8,741 nucleotides of DNA from a bacterium (GTDB lineage Bacteria > NPL-UPA2 > JAGMAN01). Position 1 is the first letter of the stretch; the number at the start of each line of letters is the position of its first letter. The stretch is taken from positions 1-8,741 of the forward strand of contig JAGMAN010000072.1 of NCBI GenBank assembly GCA_023130215.1. Reading direction: 5' to 3'. Below the pieces are notes generated by a model, which worked only from the letters and a program-made list of their open reading frames with translations, made no database searches and had not been told where the DNA came from. The position numbers and the translations under genes were made by a program. Below are positions 1-8,741 of the stretch, piece after piece.

Positions 1-11
1 GTAGTTTTCAC
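1..11 (-). CDS. Possible start of a further downstream gene (partial)
   Basis: A GTG codon at 11-9 on the minus strand is followed by AAA ACT AC before the window ends. A GGAG at 23-20 lies 8 nt upstream, which is good SD spacing. It would begin about 30 bp after the stop of the Dph6-like gene, on the same strand, so it could be the third gene of the riboswitch-controlled operon. The nearby ATG at 25 reads only four more codons before a TGA. Three codons are too few to identify a product, and the call rests only on the start signals. Confidence 0.25.
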
Positions 12-40: not shown

Positions 41-745
41 TCATTCACTTTCAGGGATAATCTCCAGAAGCCAATGTTTATCTTTAAATATTTTTCTACC
101 AGCTGCAAACTTCACCGGCCTTTTAAAGATGGGACCATCGTAGACAAAGGTATGGTATTCACCTTTCTCCCCACAGAGATCAACCCCGCTCGCCCCGTTG
201 GAGAGCTCTTCTCTACCCGGGTCAATATTGCCCAATCTTTTTAGGTCTTCTATGAATTTCTTATTTACTTCGCGGCCCAGCCACTCTTTGCCTAACAAAT
301 TAGCCTTAGTAGCTACTACAATGGCCTTGAAACCGGTCCGGATAAATTCTTTAAGTAATCCCTCCCTGTCTTCTCCCCATAAAGGCAACAGTGGTTTAAT
401 CTCCGCCTCTTTGCATACCCTCTCTACCCAATCCCGATGCTCCTGAAGGTCTATGTCGCCAAAAATGCCAACCTCAACGCCCTTCTTTTTTAACCCTGAA
501 ACTGCTTTTTTAAACACTCTTTCATAACTTCCCCAGGTAGTCCTCCCTTGGATAATTGGAATGTCTAAGGCATCTGCCTGGACTCTCAAGAGGGTTGAGC
601 TAACTCCGTGTGAACGAGAATGTTTACCATCCTCTGATACCATATTTAGAAGATAGGCAGTTTTAATATCTTGATTTTGCATTGTCTTATAACATGCCAG
701 AGATGTTTCCTTGCCCCCACTCCAGGAAACAAATGCCTTCTCCAT
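41..745 (-). CDS. Dph6/MJ0570-family ATP pyrophosphatase (PP-loop amidoligase-like, ATP_bind_4)
   Basis: This 234-aa protein has the length and layout of the diphthine-ammonia ligase (Dph6, MJ0570) family of adenine nucleotide alpha-hydrolases. The PP-loop is at residues 9-14 (SGGKET, a variant of SGGxDS), and the family's C-terminal signature GVDLCGEKGEYHTFVYDGP is at 187-205. LPLWGEDREGLLKEFI around 120-135 is also typical. Archaeal and eukaryotic members adenylate a carboxylate and amidate it with ammonia to finish diphthamide. Bacteria lack diphthamide, so the bacterial substrate is unknown. The ATG at 745-743 has GGAGG 6 nt upstream. It follows the asparagine-synthetase-like gene after 100 nt and probably shares its B12-riboswitch transcript. 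By inference it may amidate or adenylate a cofactor-related carboxylate. The acidic residue after the PP-loop lysine is E where the consensus has D. The family call is firm and the function is open. Confidence 0.85.
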   Translation of the reverse strand: MEKAFVSWSGGKETSLACYKTMQNQDIKTAYLLNMVSEDGKHSRSHGVSSTLLRVQADALDIPIIQGRTTWGSYERVFKKAVSGLKKKGVEVGIFGDIDLQEHRDWVERVCKEAEIKPLLPLWGEDREGLLKEFIRTGFKAIVVATKANLLGKEWLGREVNKKFIEDLKRLGNIDPGREELSNGASGVDLCGEKGEYHTFVYDGPIFKRPVKFAAGRKIFKDKHWLLEIIPESE

Positions 746-761
746 CTACATCCTCCAATCC

Positions 762-790
762 AAGTTAGCTCGGCTATCGCCTCGCAACTT
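762..790 (-). other. Intercistronic hairpin with tandem G-A mismatches
   Basis: Read as minus-strand RNA, the outer arms AAGUU and AACUU enclose GC/GC, a symmetric GA/GA internal loop, GGC/GCC and a GAUA loop, with one bulged U. Tandem G-A pairs are a common stable RNA internal loop. The plus-strand version would have UC/UC mismatches, so the structure favours the minus-strand operon transcript. It ends about 17 nt upstream of the start codon at 745, just before its SD. It could affect processing or translation of the second gene. Folding was judged by eye. Confidence 0.5.
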
Positions 791-794
791 ACTA

Positions 795-825
795 TCGTAT
801 GGGAAATTTATAATTTCCTATACGG
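795..825. repeat. Near-perfect inverted repeat between the two PP-loop genes
   Basis: The arms CGTATGGGAAATT (796-808) and AATTTCCTATACG (812-824) are complementary across 13 positions with one exception, around a 3-nt TAT loop. The exception is a G-T wobble in plus-strand RNA and an A-C mismatch in minus-strand RNA. The repeat lies 21 bp beyond the stop of the asparagine-synthetase-like gene. It has no T-run on the minus strand, so it is unlikely to be a simple terminator for that gene. mRNA stabilisation or intercistronic processing is possible. Confidence 0.6.
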
Positions 826-845
826 CAAGAAAATTCGTCGTAGGT

Positions 846-1910
846 TTATACTCTACTATGCTCCAAAACATGCCCACAGACTTTGCAATGAAAACTCCCG
901 GAACCCATCCCCGCCCCACATCCTGGACAGGTTTTCTGATCATTTTCAGGCTCAGGGATATCTCCTACTTCTTCTTTGTAAATCTCGTAATAGTAGAGGT
1001 GCTCTTTATTCATAAACTTTGTTGGATAAAGCCTGTTTTTTCTTTCAAACTCTTCATCCGATATCTTTGCGCTAATAATCTCCCTTAACTTTGTAGTCCC
1101 TGAGCCAAATTCTAATGGCCTCTTATCCTGCCAGATAATTTGGTGTGGCAAAACACCCTCAAAAGCCTTGCGTAAAATCCACTTTCCCCAAATCTTCCCT
1201 TCGCTTGCAGTCCTAAAGGCAGCACTCTTACGTGTCCCCCTCCTCAACTTAAGGTCCGATTTTATCTTAAGAGAAAATTTAGTAAATTCCTCATCCAGAT
1301 AGGGTTGCTTTATCTCTAATCCCAATAACTTGCCAAGCTCATTAGAACTAAAGTGCATTAGATAGGAAATCCTCCGGATATAATTGTCTAAGTTGTCCAT
1401 ATCCTGCATGAAGCTATATCCAGCAAAGAGCTCATCTGCGCCATCGCCAGTCATTACCGTCTTTAGTCCTTTCTCTTTAGCAAGCTTCAGGCCAAAGTAG
1501 ACAGTTATATCATTGGGAATGGCCGGGTCAAAACTTTTAAGAGCCTTTATTATTATCGGAATAGAACCAATAGCTTCTTCAGCGGAGATTAGCTTGTGGA
1601 AATATTCAATGTTAAGAAAATCGGCGACATATCTTGCATAATTGAGGTCTTCTCCATAAGATTCAAAGGTGACTACCATTGCCTTAATATTGGGCCTAAG
1701 GCTTGCCAGGATACTTGAATCCAGGCCTCCGGAGAGAAGCAAACCTTCTGCCTGGTTCTTTATGACGGCACTGCGCAATTTATCTTTTAATTCAGTCATA
1801 GAGAATTTCATGTCAGGAAAATCTTCCCTCACCTTAATCCTCATATAATTTTCTATGCAATAAATAAAAATCCTCAGCCTTCTCCGATCAGAAAACTGAG
1901 GAATCAACAT
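846..1910 (-). CDS. Asparagine-synthetase-like protein lacking the glutaminase domain, with C-terminal zinc ribbon
   Basis: This 354-aa protein matches the synthetase half of AsnB. The PP-loop SGGLDSS is at 60-66, TGDGADELFAGY (pyrophosphate/adenylate site) at 154-165, and the C-terminal helix pattern KWILRKAFEGVLP at 243-255. The N-terminal class II glutaminase domain of AsnB (catalytic Cys2, about 200 aa) is absent, so nitrogen must come from free ammonia or a partner, or the acceptor is some other amine. The tail carries CPGC (Cys328, Cys331) and CKVC (Cys342, Cys345), a four-Cys zinc ribbon that AsnB does not normally have. The ATG at 1910-1908 is preceded by GGGTGAGG (1925-1918) at 7 nt spacing. 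Later Met codons (residues 23, 34, 38) lack an SD, though the conserved core starts only near residue 38. It lies directly behind a cobalamin riboswitch and ahead of another PP-loop amidoligase-family gene. The family is firm; the substrate is unknown and perhaps corrinoid-related. Confidence 0.87.
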   Translation of the reverse strand: MLIPQFSDRRRLRIFIYCIENYMRIKVREDFPDMKFSMTELKDKLRSAVIKNQAEGLLLSGGLDSSILASLRPNIKAMVVTFESYGEDLNYARYVADFLNIEYFHKLISAEEAIGSIPIIIKALKSFDPAIPNDITVYFGLKLAKEKGLKTVMTGDGADELFAGYSFMQDMDNLDNYIRRISYLMHFSSNELGKLLGLEIKQPYLDEEFTKFSLKIKSDLKLRRGTRKSAAFRTASEGKIWGKWILRKAFEGVLPHQIIWQDKRPLEFGSGTTKLREIISAKISDEEFERKNRLYPTKFMNKEHLYYYEIYKEEVGDIPEPENDQKTCPGCGAGMGSGSFHCKVCGHVLEHSRV

Positions 1911-1913
1911 CTT

Positions 1914-1967
1914 CCTGCCTCACCCTTCTTTACCATAGAAGAAAACTGGCAAGCTCATCCAGGCAGG
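1914..1967 (-). promoter_or_regulatory. Putative expression platform: stem masking the ribosome-binding site
   Basis: On the minus strand CCTGCCT (1967-1961) is exactly complementary to AGGCAGG (1920-1914). A nested pair, CTTGCCA (1953-1947) with TGGTAAAG (1935-1928), forms with one bulged A and one G-T pair around an 11-nt loop. The outer arm covers the last bases of the SD (1925-1918) and ends 3 nt before the ATG at 1910. The 1967-1961 arm includes CCTG of the riboswitch P1 3' strand, so P1 and this stem cannot form together. No terminator-like T-run follows, so control of translation is more likely than attenuation. Confidence 0.5.
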
Positions 1968-2133
1968 TCTTCTGACTCCCGGCTCAACCTAATCACCACG
2001 CCTTCCCACCCTTGACATCGTAGATGTCAAGGACAGTGGCCTCTTGTGGCTTTCGTCCCCGGTGCACAGCGGCGGGTCCGTCCCTCTGGACTTCCCTATT
2101 CTCCCCACCAGAGAACATCTGGCAGGGCACCTG
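1961..2133 (-). promoter_or_regulatory. Cobalamin (adenosylcobalamin) riboswitch
   Basis: Read on the minus strand, the aptamer opens with AGGTGCC (2132-2126). It continues through the GC-rich core, GCCACTG (2040-2034) and GGGAAGGCG (2007-1999). It closes with the B12 box AGTCAGAAGACCTGCC (1977-1962), one base from the usual AGTCAGGAGACCTGCC. P1 can form from CAGGT (2133-2129) with ACCTG (1968-1964). The order, spacing and total length of about 175 nt fit the classic family. The leader lies 51 nt upstream of the asparagine-synthetase-like start codon and directly downstream of a consensus promoter on the same strand. Known members mostly reduce expression of B12 synthesis or transport genes, or of B12-independent isoenzymes, when cobalamin is plentiful. 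Here it should control the two PP-loop genes. Confidence 0.95.
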
Positions 2134-2159
2134 GACAAGAAATATTCAATTGTGGTCAG

Positions 2160-2188
2160 ATTATAAACCAGCTCAAGCTATCTGTCAA
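2160..2188 (-). promoter_or_regulatory. Consensus sigma70 promoter of the riboswitch operon
   Basis: On the minus strand there is a perfect TTGACA (2188-2183), a 17-nt spacer and a perfect TATAAT (2165-2160). Transcription should start near 2153, about 20 nt before the riboswitch P1 strand. That gives a leader of about 243 nt before the start codon at 1910. Confidence 0.85.
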
Positions 2189-2477
2189 GAGAAAAATGCA
2201 AATTTGAAGGATTTGGATGAGCTAGAAGTGCAAAATTTGCTAGGATTGGACTAGAATACGAGGAGGGTTTAAAAAGTATGGGCTTGAAAGTAAGGTATTA
2301 GTGCAGTTTCAGGGTGGTGCTTGTATACGGATCTGAAAAACTTTGCCGTTAGGCCAAGATGCTCTAAATGAGCGTCTTAGAAGTGGTGGTTTGGCTCTAA
2401 AGGTCAAATAGGACGTTTTAGGGCTGTTTTTAGAGGATGAATTTAGATTGCTTAGGCAGATGCTGCAAGGAAATTAT
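2189..2477. other. Intergenic stretch with no recognisable gene
   Basis: No convincing reading frame is present on either strand. The plus strand has stops every few codons in the frame that otherwise looks longest. There is one small inverted repeat, AAGATGCTC/GAGCGTCTT (2356-2378, one G-T pair, 5-nt loop). No tRNA arms, CRISPR repeats or T-tracts were seen. It may be decayed sequence marking the left edge of the accessory segment. Confidence 0.5.
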
Positions 2478-3224
2478 TCAAGGAAGGATTAGGGGAGGGG
2501 TATCTCGGCATAAATAGTCATATAATGGAGAAAAACTTCTTATAACTGAACTTACCTTATTTGCAAATTCAGGCTTTTTGACTATAGGACACCCATAGTA
2601 CCAATAATCGACACGAAACTGAAGTTGCATGTTGACATACCCCTTGAACTCCCTGGACTTAGCCTGTAAGGCGCTGCTTAGCGCTTCCATCCAGTAACGG
2701 TTCATTTTAATTTTCTCCTCTTGCCGAGCATATCTTTCACCCACTGCAGGGTCAATCTCCATGGTCGCATCGTTGACTAACTCGCTACCGCGATGCCCAC
2801 CCGCCGCATGGCGCTGCTCCAGCCAAAAGTATAAGTTTCGCACTTCAGGCCGTATCTCCTCAATCTTTCTACAGTATTTCTCTGGGTTCATAACCTTATC
2901 CCAATATTCCTTCTTAGAAGCTCCGTTGGGTATCGTCAAGGCTACCACTGCCTTTTGTCGTTGTATACCTACAGTGAAGTGTGGGTGTTTAAATTTATCT
3001 TTATTCTCCTTGTCAGAAAAAATACCCCATACACCGTATCGTTTTGATAGTCCATACTTACCTCTTATGCGCATCCCTCGGTAGGTTGCTTGGATCGAAT
3101 CCTCTATGACTTTCATAAGCTGATCTAAAAATTTCCTGGCTTCATCTGAATCATAACAATTATTATCGAACTTAATTCCACTAAATCTCTTTACGCTCAT
3201 TTCCTCCTCCGCAACCTCATACAT
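2478..3224 (-). CDS. Hypothetical protein, 248 aa, family not recognised
   Basis: This is a soluble-looking, basic and aromatic-rich protein with no signal peptide or membrane segment. The N-terminal half (about 25-100) alternates helix (SDEARKFLDQLMKVIEDS) with strand-like stretches (HFTVGI, AVVALTIP). Residues 105-200 look helical and contain QRHAAGGHRG (137-146). The C-terminus has an aromatic run, DYWYYGCP (206-213). None of these motifs points to a family I know. The start is uncertain. The ATG at 3224 has only a weak SD. An in-frame ATG at 3200 (MSVKRFSG) has GGAGG just 2 nt upstream, which is tight but may indicate the true start and would give 240 aa. Neighbours on the same strand are a membrane protein and a recombinase remnant, so an accessory role is plausible. 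The long uninterrupted frame supports a real gene. Confidence 0.6.
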   Translation of the reverse strand: MYEVAEEEMSVKRFSGIKFDNNCYDSDEARKFLDQLMKVIEDSIQATYRGMRIRGKYGLSKRYGVWGIFSDKENKDKFKHPHFTVGIQRQKAVVALTIPNGASKKEYWDKVMNPEKYCRKIEEIRPEVRNLYFWLEQRHAAGGHRGSELVNDATMEIDPAVGERYARQEEKIKMNRYWMEALSSALQAKSREFKGYVNMQLQFRVDYWYYGCPIVKKPEFANKVSSVIRSFSPLYDYLCRDTPPLILP

Positions 3225-3331
3225 TGCTCTTACTTATCATTCCACAACTCTTTTTTTATTCTCCTTGATTCTAAGAACCCTGCCTAAAAACAGTCCCTAG
3301 GTTGACTAACACGTCACAGAGAAAAGAATCT

Positions 3332-4252
3332 TTAATAATTTAATCGGCGAGATGAAATTGAACCATCTGTAATCCGAAGAACATAACCACGAATTTCACA
3401 AGAGTAGTATTCAACTTCGTGTCCATTCTTGAGCTTCCACCCAACATACGTTGGCACATTCATCTCCACCTCCGTCCAACGGCTCTGACCGCGCGGTCCA
3501 ATTCCGCGATACTTTACCTCCTTCAACACCCCAAAAGAACCACGCTGCTTCGTAGGCTTCCCATACATCTTCATCAGTCCATTAATAACACCCTCCAATT
3601 TATCACGAAACTCCACTGCGGAATATACATTATGAGCAAAGTGACATAAAATTATATCAAGATCATGTGTCCCCTTATTAAAAGAACACTCTACTTTTGT
3701 TGCTACCCCAAATGGTTTCGCCCAAAAGCCTATTTCATAGTTGTGATTGTAATCAACTCTATTATTTAATCTACGAAGAACCTTGTCTTTACTCATTCCG
3801 ATGCGCAGGCTTGTATTATTAAATCGTAATTCGCCAACGCCAGGGGACCCTGTAATATATCTTAATGCCAAGAACCCCAACAAAAATATAATTCCAAATA
3901 GAATTAGTAACCGACGACCCTTGTCAGGTATAGAGCCTACTTCCTTTCCTGTATAAACCTTCATTTTTTTGTCTTGGTCTTCGTTTTGCATAATCACAGA
4001 CTTTGGTTCTGGTTCTACCACAATCTCCTCGAGGTTTATATCTAGACCAGCTTGACGTAGTTTGGCTAGCCAATCAGCCTTTGCTTTTGGACCTTCATAG
4101 ACTGTGCAGGGGACACTCTCGATTAAATCCAGAGCCTCACTCAGTGAAATGGACTTAAAAATTCTCAGCGCCTTAGCCGCTGTTAGTCTTGCGACCGGCC
4201 CCGCGATTTTGGTAATAACTACCTTATATTGCTTGGCCAATCTCCCCACCAT
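3332..4252 (-). CDS. Membrane protein with N-terminal L7/L12-CTD-like domain and C-terminal extracytoplasmic domain
   Basis: This 306-aa protein has three parts. Residues 9-75 follow the pattern of the ribosomal L7/L12 C-terminal domain. The pattern runs VVITKIAG, then TAAKALRIFKSISLSEALDLIES matching the IKAVRELTGLGLKEAKDLVE helices, then a KxxxWLAKLRQAGLDINL helix-strand. After an acidic/basic linker (78-113) comes one transmembrane helix (114-133). It is preceded by KGRR, so by the positive-inside rule the N-terminus is cytoplasmic and residues 135-306 are outside. The outer part contains LRIGMSKDKVLRRL (149-162), which recalls the G-M-S-x-x-x-V turn-helix of BamE/SmpA-like domains, and three cysteines (189, 203, 285). 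It is therefore not a ribosomal protein. The ATG at 4252 has a weak SD (AGAAG). Function is unknown. The L7/L12 resemblance is by eye. Confidence 0.65.
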   Translation of the reverse strand: MVGRLAKQYKVVITKIAGPVARLTAAKALRIFKSISLSEALDLIESVPCTVYEGPKAKADWLAKLRQAGLDINLEEIVVEPEPKSVIMQNEDQDKKMKVYTGKEVGSIPDKGRRLLILFGIIFLLGFLALRYITGSPGVGELRFNNTSLRIGMSKDKVLRRLNNRVDYNHNYEIGFWAKPFGVATKVECSFNKGTHDLDIILCHFAHNVYSAVEFRDKLEGVINGLMKMYGKPTKQRGSFGVLKEVKYRGIGPRGQSRWTEVEMNVPTYVGWKLKNGHEVEYYSCEIRGYVLRITDGSISSRRLNY

Positions 4253-4338
4253 TTCTTCTGGTCAGTATCTGTTGTTTAACCTTCAATCTTCACCTCTGGT
4301 CCATTTTGTGACGGGCTCTCAATGAAAGTTTGTGTGTC

Positions 4339-4943
4339 CTATCTTTTTTCATATGCTTCTCTAACTTGCTCTGGTGCCAGATTAGAGTAGATTTGGGTGG
4401 TAGCTAACCTTTTATGGCCTACTTGTTTTTGTACTGCTGCCATTGGGATACGGTCTAAGAGAGCATGGAGACTATGTGGGTATGCCTTAAAGTGTGGGGA
4501 GAAGCTTCTAAATTGGCTCTCTGAGCGTATTTTTTCATTAACTGTTGTATTGGCTAAAAAGCCTTCCTTGCTTAATCCTGGCCATTTTAAGGTATGCTGA
4601 GACATCGGATAGAACTTCCTTGCTTACAATAATGGTCCTGGCAGTGTTAGTTTTAGTGTTTTCTGCGGGATACGGATAAATCTTTCCTGAAAGTCTATAT
4701 CCTCTACTTTGAGTTTGGCCAGCTCACCTACTCGCGTACCGGTAGAATAGAGAAGTTTCACAATAAGCTTGTCTCTGTAGTTGTCTATAGATTCTATTAG
4801 TTGTTGCCACTCTTCTCTCTTTAAATACTTGATTTCTTTATTATTTTGGTTTTGTGTGTTGGTTTTATAGGTTATTCTTGCCATTTTCAACATTTATTCT
4901 GAGGTAACATTTCTATACTTATTTCAGAATATTCATACTTCAT
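4339..4943 (-). pseudogene. Decayed tyrosine recombinase (phage integrase family)
   Basis: Pieces of one integrase catalytic domain lie in three frames. The first (4624-4893) has LKREEWQQLIESI and STGTRVGELAKL with catalytic Arg54, then runs out at TAA after RFIRIP. A second frame continues the family pattern (AENTKTNTARTIIVSKEVL, about 4663-4606, into SDVSAYLKMARI). A third frame (4339-4605) gives GFLANTTVNEK, then PHSL, VGHKRLATTQIYSNLAPEQV with the His/Tyr motifs (GH 63-64, Tyr73). Two single-base shifts near 4665 and 4575 explain the breaks. Between PHSL and HALLD the usual RHTFAT-like residues, including the second catalytic Arg, are deleted. The N-terminal core-binding domain is missing. 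An AAGGAG SD (4959-4954) precedes an out-of-frame 18-codon stub (4943-4887), perhaps a third shift. The enzyme cannot be active. Confidence 0.85.
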
Positions 4944-4974
4944 ATCATTTACTCTCCTTTATTATTTCCCTGAT

Positions 4975-5469
4975 CTACTTTCTTTTTCCCTTATCATAAT
5001 TTTTGCTATATCGCACCACCAACCCAATTAACAACCTAAGATCAGAATTTCCTATCTTTTTGATAATACTTTTTGCAACAACATCTTCATATAACTTCTT
5101 CATAATATAATCAACTTTTCTCTTCCGTTTTTCCTTATTTTTCTCACTTATTGATCCTTGTTTCTTATCTTTGCTTTTATCTTTATCCGTTACAATTTCC
5201 ACTTTTTTAGTTAATACATAATTTTCTTTCAATTTCTTAAAAAGTTTATCTATTGTTTCTTTAGCATGACGAGGAACAGGTGTTGTAAAACCACCTGGAA
5301 CTTCAGTAATAAATATCCATTTTAAACAACTATTATCTCTATAAACTACATCCCCATATTGATTTGTATAAGTAACCACTTTACAATCTTTTGCAAATAC
5401 TACTGGATTCATACTTACAACAACCATAAAAACAACCAACATCATAACACGTTTCATGACCTTTTTCAT
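4975..5469 (-). CDS. Small secreted lysine-rich protein, family not recognised
   Basis: This 164-aa protein starts with a clear Sec signal peptide: basic MKKVMKR, a hydrophobic core at 8-24, and probable cleavage after VFA (26). The mature part has two cysteines (29 and 48) flanking TYTNQYGDVVYRD (33-45), a beta-hairpin-like stretch that could be disulfide-closed. It loosely recalls the YxYxDxxGxVxYSD start of DUF4124-type periplasmic domains. Residues 93-120 are a very charged Lys/Asp/Glu linker, followed by a helical, basic C-terminus. The ATG at 5469 has AGGAGG (5482-5477) at 7 nt spacing. An exact 12-bp tandem duplication (5453-5476) covers the start and adds four codons. The gene is much more AT-rich than the flanking genes, suggesting recent acquisition together with the adjacent recombinase remnant. 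Confidence 0.65.
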   Translation of the reverse strand: MKKVMKRVMMLVVFMVVVSMNPVVFAKDCKVVTYTNQYGDVVYRDNSCLKWIFITEVPGGFTTPVPRHAKETIDKLFKKLKENYVLTKKVEIVTDKDKSKDKKQGSISEKNKEKRKRKVDYIMKKLYEDVVAKSIIKKIGNSDLRLLIGLVVRYSKNYDKGKRK

Positions 5470-5476
5470 GACCTTT
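5453..5476. repeat. 12-bp tandem duplication at a start codon
   Basis: TTCATGACCTTT occurs twice in succession (5453-5464 and 5465-5476). On the minus strand each copy carries an in-frame ATG, so the secreted-protein gene has two possible starts (5469 and 5457). Only the outer one has an AGGAGG at proper distance. Confidence 0.85.
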
Positions 5477-5604
5477 CCTCCTATTTCTCAAATTTTATTC
5501 TCAATCTATTTATTCTTCATCACCTCCTTTTCCTTTCGCTTTCGCGTATTTACCTCACTTCTCATGCTCAAAACTGGCATTTTCAAGGCTTATTCCAGCC
5601 TATT

Positions 5605-5633
5605 ATTTCGCTTTAGAGGTCCTAAGGCGAAAT
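5605..5633. repeat. 12-bp inverted repeat in the intergenic region
   Basis: ATTTCGC (5605-5611) pairs with GCGAAAT (5627-5633), continued by T-G and TTAG/CTAA, around the 5-nt loop AGGTC. The T-G pair is allowed only in plus-strand RNA; it becomes A-C on the minus strand. The right arm GGCGAAA can also pair with TTTcCGCC downstream (about 5646-5653, one bulge), giving a competing hairpin. A smaller repeat AGGCT/AGCCT lies just to the left (5587-5602), and ACGGA/TCCGT (5674-5688) to the right. No gene is present here on either strand. Confidence 0.65.
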
Positions 5634-5699
5634 GGGGTCAGCTGTTTCCGCCACTCTTAGCCTCACTCTTCACACGGATGATGTCCGTACCGCTTTTTG

Positions 5700-6083
5700 T
5701 TATTTATCTCTTAAAACTGCTTCTATCTTTGATGTATCTATTCTTGATACATCTGTATGAACCAAAGCAGACGCTATTTGACCAGGACTTACATTGAGCC
5801 CCTCTTTTTGCTTGTAATATTTAGCAATTTTTTCAAGCTTAATCCAGTCTTCATCAAAGAGAGGGATTTTATTCCGCCTTTTCTTGAGGGCCCCTACCAG
5901 CGCAGGCCGGCCCCCACTGGATCGCAGCCGTTCTACAAGGAACTGCCGGAGTGCAAATAAAGAAATCGGCCCCTGTCTTGTATCTATTGTTACTCCTACC
6001 GCTTCTGCGCCCAACTCTTTGGCTACAACTTTAAGATTAACCTGTCTCTGGGTTAGTCCGACATTTTTAATTATTCTTGCCAT
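5700..6083 (-). CDS. Small protein with predicted ribbon-helix-helix C-terminus (putative regulator)
   Basis: This is a 127-aa protein. The N-terminal 60 residues (ARIIKNVGLTQRQVNLKVVAKELG and so on) are not recognised. After a GGRP turn and a basic KKRRNK stretch (67-72), the C-terminal part reads as a short strand (KIPLF, 72-76), a helix (DEDWIKLEKIAKYYKQK, 77-93) and a second helix after SPGQ (99-113). This is the strand-helix-helix order of ribbon-helix-helix DNA-binding proteins, where SPGQIA resembles the usual turn. The ATG at 6083 has a strong SD (GAGGAGGGAGG) just upstream. The gene begins 19 bp after the 145-aa protein gene, so the two are surely co-transcribed. The palindromic operator in their promoter makes this protein a candidate autorepressor. 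The fold is a visual prediction. Confidence 0.6.
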   Translation of the reverse strand: MARIIKNVGLTQRQVNLKVVAKELGAEAVGVTIDTRQGPISLFALRQFLVERLRSSGGRPALVGALKKRRNKIPLFDEDWIKLEKIAKYYKQKEGLNVSPGQIASALVHTDVSRIDTSKIEAVLRDK

Positions 6084-6102
6084 TTTCCTCCCTCCTCAAG
6101 TC

Positions 6103-6540
6103 TTATTTTGGATCGTATTCGCGAATTCTGAAAAATTCGCCGGCAAATTCAAACACTACTTCTCCTTGATTTGTTTCCCGGCCAAATCTATGCAGAAATT
6201 CTCTGAGCAGTTTTAAGTTTTTTTCGAATCTGCTCGGATAAATATATGTGTATGTTATGGTGGTCTTTTCCCAAAGCATATCCTCATCTCTTAACTGGTC
6301 TATGCTGTCAATGTCCCTTTCTTGACTTAACCAGGTGCCCTCCGCAGGTGGCATTGTGGTTGAACCTCCCCCGATAATTGCAAGTACTTTCTGGGCTTCC
6401 TTGATCCAAATGTGAAGATTTTTTATCTCTCTGCCCTTTCTATCTTTGTTGGGGATATACAAAGTTAACTGCTGTGTCGAAGGTGCTTCTGCAGAACCTA
6501 AAACTTCTTTCAAGTTGATCTCTAAAATATCATCTGACAT
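6103..6540 (-). CDS. Hypothetical protein, 145 aa, first gene of a two-gene cassette
   Basis: This compact soluble protein has alternating strand and helix stretches: QQLTLYIPNKDRKGREI (23-39), a helix HIWIKEAQKVLAIIGGGSTTMPP (43-65), GTWL (68-71), TTITYTYIYP (93-102), a helix KNLKLLREFLHRFGRETNQGEVVFEF (108-132), then FFRI. Gly-rich IIGGGSTTMPP and HRFGRETNQGE look conserved in style. I have a vague memory of small proteins with this pattern near restriction-modification genes, but cannot confirm it. There is no signal peptide or membrane segment. The ATG at 6540 has GGGAGAG a few bases upstream and sits about 17 nt after the predicted transcription start, so the leader is very short. It is co-transcribed with the downstream ribbon-helix-helix-like gene. 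Confidence 0.65.
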   Translation of the reverse strand: MSDDILEINLKEVLGSAEAPSTQQLTLYIPNKDRKGREIKNLHIWIKEAQKVLAIIGGGSTTMPPAEGTWLSQERDIDSIDQLRDEDMLWEKTTITYTYIYPSRFEKNLKLLREFLHRFGRETNQGEVVFEFAGEFFRIREYDPK

Positions 6541-6563
6541 ATTTATCTCTCCCTATTGTTGTA

Positions 6564-6592
6564 AGTTTACCACTTTTGGCCCCAAAAGTCAA
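6564..6592 (-). promoter_or_regulatory. Promoter of the two-gene cassette
   Basis: On the minus strand TTGACT (6592-6587), a 17-nt spacer and TAAACT (6569-6564) give a plausible sigma70 promoter. Initiation should fall near 6557, about 17 nt before the ATG at 6540. Confidence 0.6.
6572..6589. promoter_or_regulatory. Perfect 18-bp palindrome: probable operator
   Basis: ACTTTTGG-CC-CCAAAAGT is an 8-bp perfect inverted repeat around a 2-bp centre. It fills the spacer and overlaps the last bases of the -35 box of the cassette promoter, which is the classic position for a dimeric repressor to block RNA polymerase. An RNA hairpin role is unlikely because it lies upstream of the predicted transcription start. 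The candidate binder is the ribbon-helix-helix-like protein encoded second in the operon. Confidence 0.6.
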
Positions 6593-6617
6593 GGTTTTTT
6601 TAGATACTAAAAGGCTC

Positions 6618-6642
6618 CTTCTTCGCCCTTCGGGCATAGAAG
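6618..6642 (-). terminator. Weak terminator-like hairpin after the Ada-like gene
   Basis: GCCC/GGGC with a 3-nt loop is extended, after a 2x2 mismatch, by CTTCT/AGAAG. On the minus strand it is followed after 5 nt by TTTT. It lies about 85 bp beyond the stop of the secreted Ada-like gene and just before the promoter of the next unit. That is a sensible place for a terminator, but the T-run is short. Confidence 0.35.
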
Positions 6643-6726
6643 ACTTCTTAACTTATTGATGACAAAAGGGTAATGTATAAGTTCCTATATTATCAAGTAA
6701 AAAGGGCTGAAAAATGCAGGCCTGGA

Positions 6727-7380
6727 TTATCTCGTGCACTTGCGGCAGGGGCGGCGTCCTGACTTCCTTGCTTCCTTCTTCGTCTCGAAATAAACCCGAT
6801 CCTCCTCCCTTATCTTGGAGACATAGATACACATGATCCTATGGAATACTTTAGATTTGCGGTCTGCTACATATCGATATTTCCCTTTCTTAACTTCAGC
6901 AGGCGACTTGCCCAAACGGCGGATTTTACTATCAATTACTTCCTTTTTCTTAATTAAACTATTCTTTATCTCCACTGCTTTATAGGAAAATTCCCGTTCT
7001 ATATCTTTCTTCAGACTGCTTAGGGCCTCCTTCAGCCTCTTGGTCTTCAGACGGCTCATCCGCCCTTTCTCTAAATGTTTAGATATTTCCTTATATCTAT
7101 CAGTGTAAGCCTGAAGGGCTACCTCCTTCTCCTCCTCAAGTACCTCCTGTAACTTCTCTAAGGTAGCTATGGCTCGCTGGCAGTAAGCCTTGTCCCGCTT
7201 GATATTTTCACCCAACTTAGATTTCAATTCATGGTGACAAGCTTTCCAGAGGACAAAATTCTCTTTGTACCAGGCCAGTGCCTCTTCCCTAACAGCAGAT
7301 TCCTCATCAGCCCCAAGCAAACTGCCACTCAGGCTAATGATAAGAAAAAGCACCACTCCGCACCAAACTTTTCTAACCAT
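6727..7380 (-). CDS. Secreted coiled-coil protein with C-terminal Ada-like zinc-binding domain
   Basis: This 217-aa protein begins with a signal peptide (basic VRK, hydrophobic core about 5-22, likely cleavage after LLGA, residue 24). Residues 26-160 are almost wholly charged helix with heptad-like spacing, which suggests a coiled coil. The last 50 residues match the metal-binding domain of Ada-type proteins: YVADRKSKVFH (170-180), HRIMC, VYFETKKEARKSGRRPCRKC. The zinc ligands would be His180, Cys184, Cys212 and Cys215, with His replacing the first of Ada's four cysteines. In Ada this domain repairs DNA methylphosphotriesters in the cytoplasm. Here the signal peptide places it outside, so DNA repair is unlikely and a structural zinc knuckle is more plausible. 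The ATG at 7380 has AGGAG upstream. It is transcribed divergently from prs, from its own promoter with a long leader. Confidence 0.75.
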   Translation of the reverse strand: MVRKVWCGVVLFLIISLSGSLLGADEESAVREEALAWYKENFVLWKACHHELKSKLGENIKRDKAYCQRAIATLEKLQEVLEEEKEVALQAYTDRYKEISKHLEKGRMSRLKTKRLKEALSSLKKDIEREFSYKAVEIKNSLIKKKEVIDSKIRRLGKSPAEVKKGKYRYVADRKSKVFHRIMCIYVSKIREEDRVYFETKKEARKSGRRPCRKCTR

Positions 7381-7761: not shown

Positions 7762-7802
7762 GAATACAAGATGTTAAATTGGCGATTTTAAGGAGAGGGA
7801 AG

Positions 7803-8741
7803 ATGGCCGGTGGGCAGTTGAAAGTTTTTACGGGGAAGGCTAATTTAGATTTGGCTGAAAAGATATGTAGATATCTCAAGTTCTCCTTAGGCAAAGCTGA
7901 GGTGACTTCCTTCCCTGATGGGGAAGTGCGGGTGGAGATTAAAGAGAATGCCCGCGGAGCGGATGCCTTCATCATTCAATCCACCTGCCCGCCCGTCAAT
8001 AACAACTTAATGGAACTCCTTGTCATGATTGATGCTCTGCGCCGAGCTTCCGCTCGGAGGATAACAGCCGTCATTCCCTATTATGGTTATGCCCGGCAGG
8101 ACAGAAAAGTTCAGCCCCGGGTTCCGATAACGGCCAAGCTGGTAGCTAATCTAATTACTGTAGCAGGAGCCAACAGGGTATTAGTTATGGACCTGCACGT
8201 TGGTCAGATTCAGGGGTTCTTTGATATCCCGGTTGACCATCTCTTTGCTGCCCCCGCCTTGATAAACTATTTTCGGAAGAAGAGGGTTAGGGATATGGTT
8301 ATCGTTGCTCCTGACCCTGGAGCAGTGGAGAGGGCAGCCGCCTTCGCTAAGCGCCTTAAGGCCTCCCTGGCCATAATAGATAAGCGCCGGCCCCGTCCAG
8401 GGGTATCCAAAGTCTTTAATGTGGTTGGGAAGGTGAAGGATAAGAATGTCATATTAGTAGATGATATGATAGATACGGGAGGAAGTATCATTGAATCAGC
8501 CAAGGTATTAAAGGAAAAGGGAGCCTCCAATATCTATGTTGGCTGTACTCATCCTGTCTTCTCTAAAAGGGCAGGCGAGCGTCTTCAGAACTCTATAGTT
8601 AAGGAAGTGGTAGTGACCGATACCATACCCTTTAGAAGCAAGCAGAATAGCAAGGTCAAAGTGCTATCGATAGCAAGTCTCTTAGGGGAAGCCATTAAGA
8701 GAATTCACAATGAAACATCGGTTAGCTCACTCTTCGTATAA
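7803..8741 (+). CDS. prs: Ribose-phosphate pyrophosphokinase (PRPP synthetase)
   Basis: This enzyme makes 5-phosphoribosyl-1-diphosphate from ribose 5-phosphate and ATP, feeding purine, pyrimidine, NAD, histidine and tryptophan synthesis in the cytoplasm. The 312-aa length is normal for the class I enzyme, and all landmarks are present. These are FPDGE (37-41), the YYGYARQDRK ATP-loop region (93-102), DLHVGQIQGFFDIPVDH (130-146) with metal-ligand His132, DKRRPRP of the catalytic flexible loop (193-199), and the PRPP-binding loop DDMIDTGGS (220-228). DLHV replaces the more usual DLHA, and APDPGA replaces SPDxGG. The ATG at 7803 is chosen because AAGGAG lies 7 nt upstream; the frame extends back to a TTG at 7779 without start signals. 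It is the only plus-strand gene and ends in TAA at the last base of the window. Confidence 0.97.
   Translation: MAGGQLKVFTGKANLDLAEKICRYLKFSLGKAEVTSFPDGEVRVEIKENARGADAFIIQSTCPPVNNNLMELLVMIDALRRASARRITAVIPYYGYARQDRKVQPRVPITAKLVANLITVAGANRVLVMDLHVGQIQGFFDIPVDHLFAAPALINYFRKKRVRDMVIVAPDPGAVERAAAFAKRLKASLAIIDKRRPRPGVSKVFNVVGKVKDKNVILVDDMIDTGGSIIESAKVLKEKGASNIYVGCTHPVFSKRAGERLQNSIVKEVVVTDTIPFRSKQNSKVKVLSIASLLGEAIKRIHNETSVSSLFV

Follow-up and report, generated by a model that had tools for sequence, protein, structure and literature searches.

Background

Many bacteria rely on scavenged cobamides, and for more than a decade DUF71-B12 proteins have stood in their salvage loci without an assigned reaction. 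A 2012 study linked bacterial DUF71/Dph6-like proteins with btuFCD and cbiB, 75 of 102 adjoining B12 transporter genes, and reported a strict anticorrelation of DUF71-B12 and CbiZ in bacteria (PMC3541065). Where Dph6 has its presumed catalytic Glu, DUF71-B12 has a His (PMC3541065). A 2016 review listed the function of the group as unknown (PMC5041015).

Here, we analysed an 8,741-nt stretch of bacterial DNA (contig JAGMAN010000072.1; hereafter, the window), in which a cobalamin riboswitch precedes a gene for an AsnB-like enzyme, named asnL, and a DUF71-B12 gene. The link of DUF71-B12 to salvage has been known since 2012, and AsnL is the new part of the finding.

Results and discussion

Features of the window

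2160..2188, minus strand: sigma-70-type promoter, TTGACA-17-TATAAT, matching the consensus at 12/12 positions
1945..2149, minus strand: cobalamin riboswitch aptamer (RF00174), full-length, model positions 1-189
1871..1902, minus strand: intrinsic terminator, a 13-pair stem followed by TTTTTATTT, the predicted expression platform of the riboswitch (z -2.4)
846..1811, minus strand: asnL, putative AsnB-like PP-loop amidoligase without a glutaminase domain (PF00733, E 5.8e-40)
873..929, minus strand: C-terminal zinc ribbon of AsnL, CPGCG...HC..CG, with four cysteines that would bind zinc
41..745, minus strand: DUF71-B12 gene, Dph6-like PP-loop ATP pyrophosphatase (PF01902, E 1.5e-51)
1..11, minus strand: start of btuF, 11 bases, GTGAAAACTAC, identical to the btuF start of a genome of the same genus (G007)

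The original prediction had described a consensus promoter, a clear B12 riboswitch and, on the same strand, an AsnB-like and a Dph6-like gene; all of these were borne out, by the promoter match, the Rfam covariance model and the two Pfam domains. It did not contain the terminator hairpin with its U-tract (1902-1871) between aptamer and asnL, or the btuF start in the first 11 bases.

Riboswitch control

The aptamer scored 85.3 bits against the RF00174 covariance model (gathering threshold 31.5; E 1.8e-20) and is the only RF00174 match in the 1.01-Mb genome to which the window belongs (G000). The aptamer of G007 is almost identical, promoter and aptamer are conserved as far as the -35 hexamer, and the promoter is kept at the same place as TTGACA/TATGAT. 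Promoter-like sites overall were no more frequent in the window than in shuffles.

When B12 is plentiful, cobalamin riboswitches of this established type favour the terminator, which shuts the operon down; when B12 is scarce, transcription proceeds. Judging from its anatomy, the window riboswitch would work in the same way. A terminator-like hairpin with a T-run was found 3' of the aptamer in 6/6 leaders examined; the window operon is therefore most likely controlled by transcription termination, as in Dehalobacter (PMC4285132).

Just upstream of the promoter, approximately 4.5 kb of the window (2190-6726) are lacking in G007, where the riboswitch and the neighbouring gene (window 6727-7380) are only approximately 40 bases apart. 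Two tyrosine recombinase fragments (4339-4605 and 4624-4893) lie in this segment along with several ORFs that had no informative family match, so the segment looks like a decayed mobile insertion. An ordinary ribose-phosphate diphosphokinase gene occupies 7779-8741 on the plus strand.

AsnL and its DUF71-B12 partner

The start of asnL was placed at 1811 by homology (family alignment A3), the next upstream ATG being at 1844. The ATG of the longest ORF, at 1910, was rejected because it sits before the terminator and the homologues favour 1811.

AsnL starts directly at the synthetase domain. PF00733 was the sole domain found, and no N-terminal class II glutaminase domain was found in the window protein. 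The four ribbon cysteines are present in 7/7 complete AsnL C-termini of alignment A3 and also in G387. Additionally, AsnL has kept an SGGLD PP-loop and the WQxKR-motif Lys, and it is acidic at the position that the Glu of SGEGSDE occupies in AS-B. In the alignment, DPAxPND of AsnL stands where E. coli AsnB has TTIR. In AS-B, the TTIR segment binds aspartate. The motif pattern of AsnL fits a putative enzyme that uses ATP to amidate a non-aspartate substrate. AsnL scored below the cut-offs of both asparagine synthetase equivalogs (150.9 of 499 bits for NF006949 and 113.3 of 267.1 bits for TIGR01536) and lies far under the cut-off of all named NCBIfam models. Predicted from two sequences, the structure of AsnL reached a mean pLDDT of 37, too low to be useful.

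The ATG of the DUF71-B12 gene is preceded by a Shine-Dalgarno-like GGAGG. The encoded protein carries the motif EKGEYH, and E[KNR]GE[YF]H was present in 11/11 aligned sequences; the published motif ENGE[FY]H, which replaces EGG[ED]xE of Dph6, is relaxed here at its second position (K or R for N). By its PF01902 domain, this motif and its B12-transport context, the window protein is a member of the DUF71-B12 subgroup. It was rejected as a diphthamide enzyme, since it reached 115.8 bits against the TIGR03679 Dph6 equivalog, below the cut-off of 197.3 bits. With both genes well below the asparagine synthase and diphthine-ammonia ligase cut-offs, a correction of annotation may follow.

Short in-frame inserts that are missing from relatives occur in the window copies of both AsnL (1191-1244, approximately 11 residues) and DUF71 (176-226, approximately 14 residues). 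No convincing second copy of either insert was found in the sequence searched.

Genomic context

The window has the order promoter, riboswitch, terminator, asnL, DUF71-B12 and btuF. The DUF71-btuF junction is conserved between the window and G007, and together with the 11 identical bases this indicates that the contig stops inside btuF. The pair heads a B12-salvage operon that, by analogy with related genomes, would continue with btuFCD, cobU, cobT and cobS. Specifically, the order is DUF71-btuF-btuC-btuD in G006, riboswitch-btuF-btuC-btuD-cobU-cobT-AsnL in G007 and riboswitch-cobU-cobT-cobS-AsnL-DUF71-CbiZ-radical SAM-btuF-cobA-btuC-btuD-riboswitch-btuB in G101. Related B12 loci with AsnL were also found in G368, G239, G272, G182, G095 and G387.

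In G007, an apparent remnant of the DUF71 3' end lies between the riboswitch terminator and btuF (L052 5263-5400). This remnant suggests that the AsnL-DUF71 pair was removed from the site before btuF, AsnL now standing behind cobT. Contrary to the strict anticorrelation reported for bacteria, two loci encode CbiZ right next to DUF71-B12 (L074 8247-8978 and L117 3-656). Small radical SAM proteins are encoded in three AsnL operons (G101, G239 and G387; L074 7386-8246, L076 1-510 and L137 5644-6372), and in G387 AsnL and DUF71 are separated by a peptide precursor, CbpA (TIGR04164), and a peptide-modifying radical SAM enzyme, CbpB (TIGR04163) (L137 3273-4932).

The genome of the window, for which genome-wide statements cover 12 family searches, encodes CbiB together with a CobD-like aminotransferase and a corrinoid protein of the methyltransferase type. 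On this gene content, the host is likely to rebuild corrinoids as well as use them. The same content bears on the proposal that AsnL, in place of the membrane enzyme CbiB, couples cobyric acid with aminopropanol or aminopropanol phosphate. Asparagine-synthetase relatives such as beta-lactam and carbapenam synthetases can use organic amines, and the incomplete genomes G007 and G006 yielded no CbiB. However, CbiB is encoded in both G000 and G272, so AsnL was rejected as a general replacement. Beta-lactam synthetase-type enzymes have Tyr where AS-B has an acidic residue, and AsnL resembles AS-B at this position. We regard a CbiB-like role as highly doubtful.

Distribution and phylogeny of AsnL

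An AsnL profile was searched against 386 genomes, and a second search centre then added G387. Matches in the 386 genomes were bimodal, with eight at 324 bits or more and the rest at 130 bits or less, so that AsnL was present in 9 of approximately 390 sampled genomes. All nine sit in B12-salvage loci: eight adjoin btu or cob genes, and that of the window lies between the riboswitch and DUF71/btuF. AsnL formed a monophyletic clade (support 100/100) against 12 AsnB paralogues. For AsnB paralogues that served as controls, the probes used revealed only generic ABC ATPases and nothing B12-specific in the neighbourhood, within the stretches examined.

We infer that the hosts span at least three phyla, those of the window, G272 and G101. 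A survey of the phylum of G272 yielded no further AsnL, a scan of named genomes yielded nothing but the same-genus relative G007 (JAUWHM010000117.1), and a scan of viral contigs gave no match. A search of the open-access literature for asparagine synthase with a cobalamin riboswitch or cobinamide returned nothing relevant beyond PMC3541065. In the sample, AsnL looks like a small family that is restricted to B12-salvage clusters and had not been recognised before.

That AsnL is an ordinary asparagine synthetase sitting in the operon by chance is very improbable. Although it belongs to PF00733 and its best solved-structure match was E. coli AsnB (PDB 1ct9), with beta-lactam and carbapenam synthetases also matched, it lacks the glutaminase, has the aspartate-site segment replaced and a zinc ribbon added, forms a separate clade and has a B12 context in every member. 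On these differences, a plain asparagine synthetase was rejected.

Co-occurrence with DUF71, CbiA/CbiP and CbiZ

AsnL and DUF71 occur together more often than chance would predict (Fisher p 1.8e-4; 2.8e-4 when the genus of the window is left out; 0.009 with family f98 collapsed), which is supportive only, because the samples are small and contain related genomes. The genomes are also incomplete. The two need not strictly co-occur, since AsnL is present and DUF71 was not detected in G095, a genome that is 98% complete; many DUF71-B12 loci are without AsnL.

GATase_3 proteins of the CbiA/CbiP type were absent from 10/10 AsnL-lineage genomes, including that of the window, and present in 4/6 DUF71-only genomes (p 0.008 for the contrast, likewise supportive only). 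The original prediction had proposed amidation of corrinoid side chains and named a complete cbiA/cbiP set in the same genome as the observation to set against it; with both absent there, the idea survives. As a sign of replacement, however, this absence is weak, because it is expected in any salvage-only genome.

CbiZ was found in 2/16 genomes, G101 (AsnL locus) and G029 (DUF71-only locus), each time beside DUF71. DUF71-B12 is therefore not merely a CbiZ substitute in these two, which speaks against the published idea of a mere stand-in.

Proposed role of the pair

The most likely reading, although a tentative one, is that AsnL and DUF71-B12 use ATP to amidate side-chain carboxylates of corrinoids that are being salvaged; the substrate, the nucleophile and the reaction direction are all deduced. 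It is based on the co-occurrence, the CbiA/CbiP pattern and the chemistry of both families, namely adenylation of a carboxylate and usually formation of an amide. When B12 is scarce, the riboswitch operon would be transcribed and both PP-loop enzymes, members of carboxylate-adenylating families, would be made. Imported corrinoids that are incompletely amidated or hydrolysed could then have their carboxylates converted to amides with ammonia, and the products would re-enter the CbiB/CobU/CobS/CobT route in bacteria without CbiA and CbiP. Several observations stand against this reading. AsnL has no glutaminase to supply ammonia; the uncoupled occurrence of AsnL (G095) and of many DUF71-B12 genes is not expected of an obligate pair; and with His in the place of the Dph6 Glu, the reaction of DUF71-B12 may not be amidation (PMC3541065).

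An alternative is a CbiZ-like activity of DUF71-B12, proposed in 2012, by which the nucleotide loop of cobamides of foreign origin would be opened. AsnL would help or would itself catalyse the reverse step, amide formation, and the pair would remodel the lower-ligand end and not the side-chain amides. This agrees with the phyletic argument published in 2012 (PMC3541065), with the failure to find CbiZ in G000 and most AsnL genomes, and with the presence of CbiB and the CobD-like protein to rebuild from cobyric acid. In G101 and G029, however, CbiZ and DUF71 share an operon, which argues against it, and a referee of the earlier work commented that hydrolysis would be unusual chemistry for a PP-loop ligase (PMC3541065). 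We consider this alternative possible but rather improbable.

The peptide-modifying radical SAM enzyme and precursor peptide of G387 hint at chemistry other than corrinoid amidation. The pair might make or modify a non-corrin target, be it a peptide, a transport ligand or part of the lower ligand, and CbpA (40.2 bits, cut-off 35) and CbpB (714 bits) would be conceivable partners. The small radical SAM proteins of the G101, G239 and G387 loci would agree with such a target. Yet CbpA occurs in 1/9 AsnL loci and CbpB was seen in that one only, whereas the neighbours common to AsnL loci are uptake and nucleotide-loop genes. We judge a non-corrin target unlikely.

For corrinoid amidation, the original interpretation holds in part. 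By operon context, both enzymes belong to B12 salvage, and CbiA and CbiP are absent, but the statement that neither enzyme family is standard in the B12 regulon is wrong for DUF71-B12, given its published context (PMC3541065) and the subgroup motif in the window. More broadly, and with still greater reserve, salvage-only bacteria may possess in these two enzymes a new PP-loop route by which corrinoids are amidated or remodelled, built from families other than CbiA/CbiP, CbiB and CbiZ. A dedicated AsnB-like partner points the chemistry of DUF71-B12 towards ATP-dependent amide formation, and such a route, if true, would give DUF71-B12 both a partner and a testable reaction.

Comparison with known systems

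AsnL shares with E. coli AsnB the synthetase domain, the PP-loop and the conserved Lys motif. Unlike AsnB, it has no N-terminal glutaminase, carries DPAxPND in place of TTIR, ends in a zinc ribbon and was found only in B12 loci in the sample. If AsnL and DUF71 amidate corrinoid carboxylates, CbiA/CbiP would be their functional counterpart, although of a different family, CbiA combining nucleotide-binding and GATase_3 domains, and not present in the tested AsnL-lineage genomes.

Operon 2 of Dehalobacter restrictus likewise has a cobalamin riboswitch and a predicted terminator before genes for corrinoid uptake and salvage, while the main text of that paper does not mention asparagine-synthetase or PP-loop genes (PMC4285132). 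In a few Archaea, AsnB-DUF71 fusions similarly pair an AsnB module with a DUF71 module; there, the AsnB module has kept its glutaminase and was interpreted as the supplier of ammonia (PMC3541065).

A further close system is the DUF71-B12 subgroup of COG2102 described by de Crecy-Lagard et al. in 2012, with which the window shares PF01902, the motif E-x-G-E-[YF]-H, adjoining btuF/btuCD and, in its relatives, cob genes (PMC3541065). It differs from that subgroup in that the window gene is preceded by asnL within one riboswitch-controlled unit, and in that DUF71-B12 elsewhere stands beside CbiZ.
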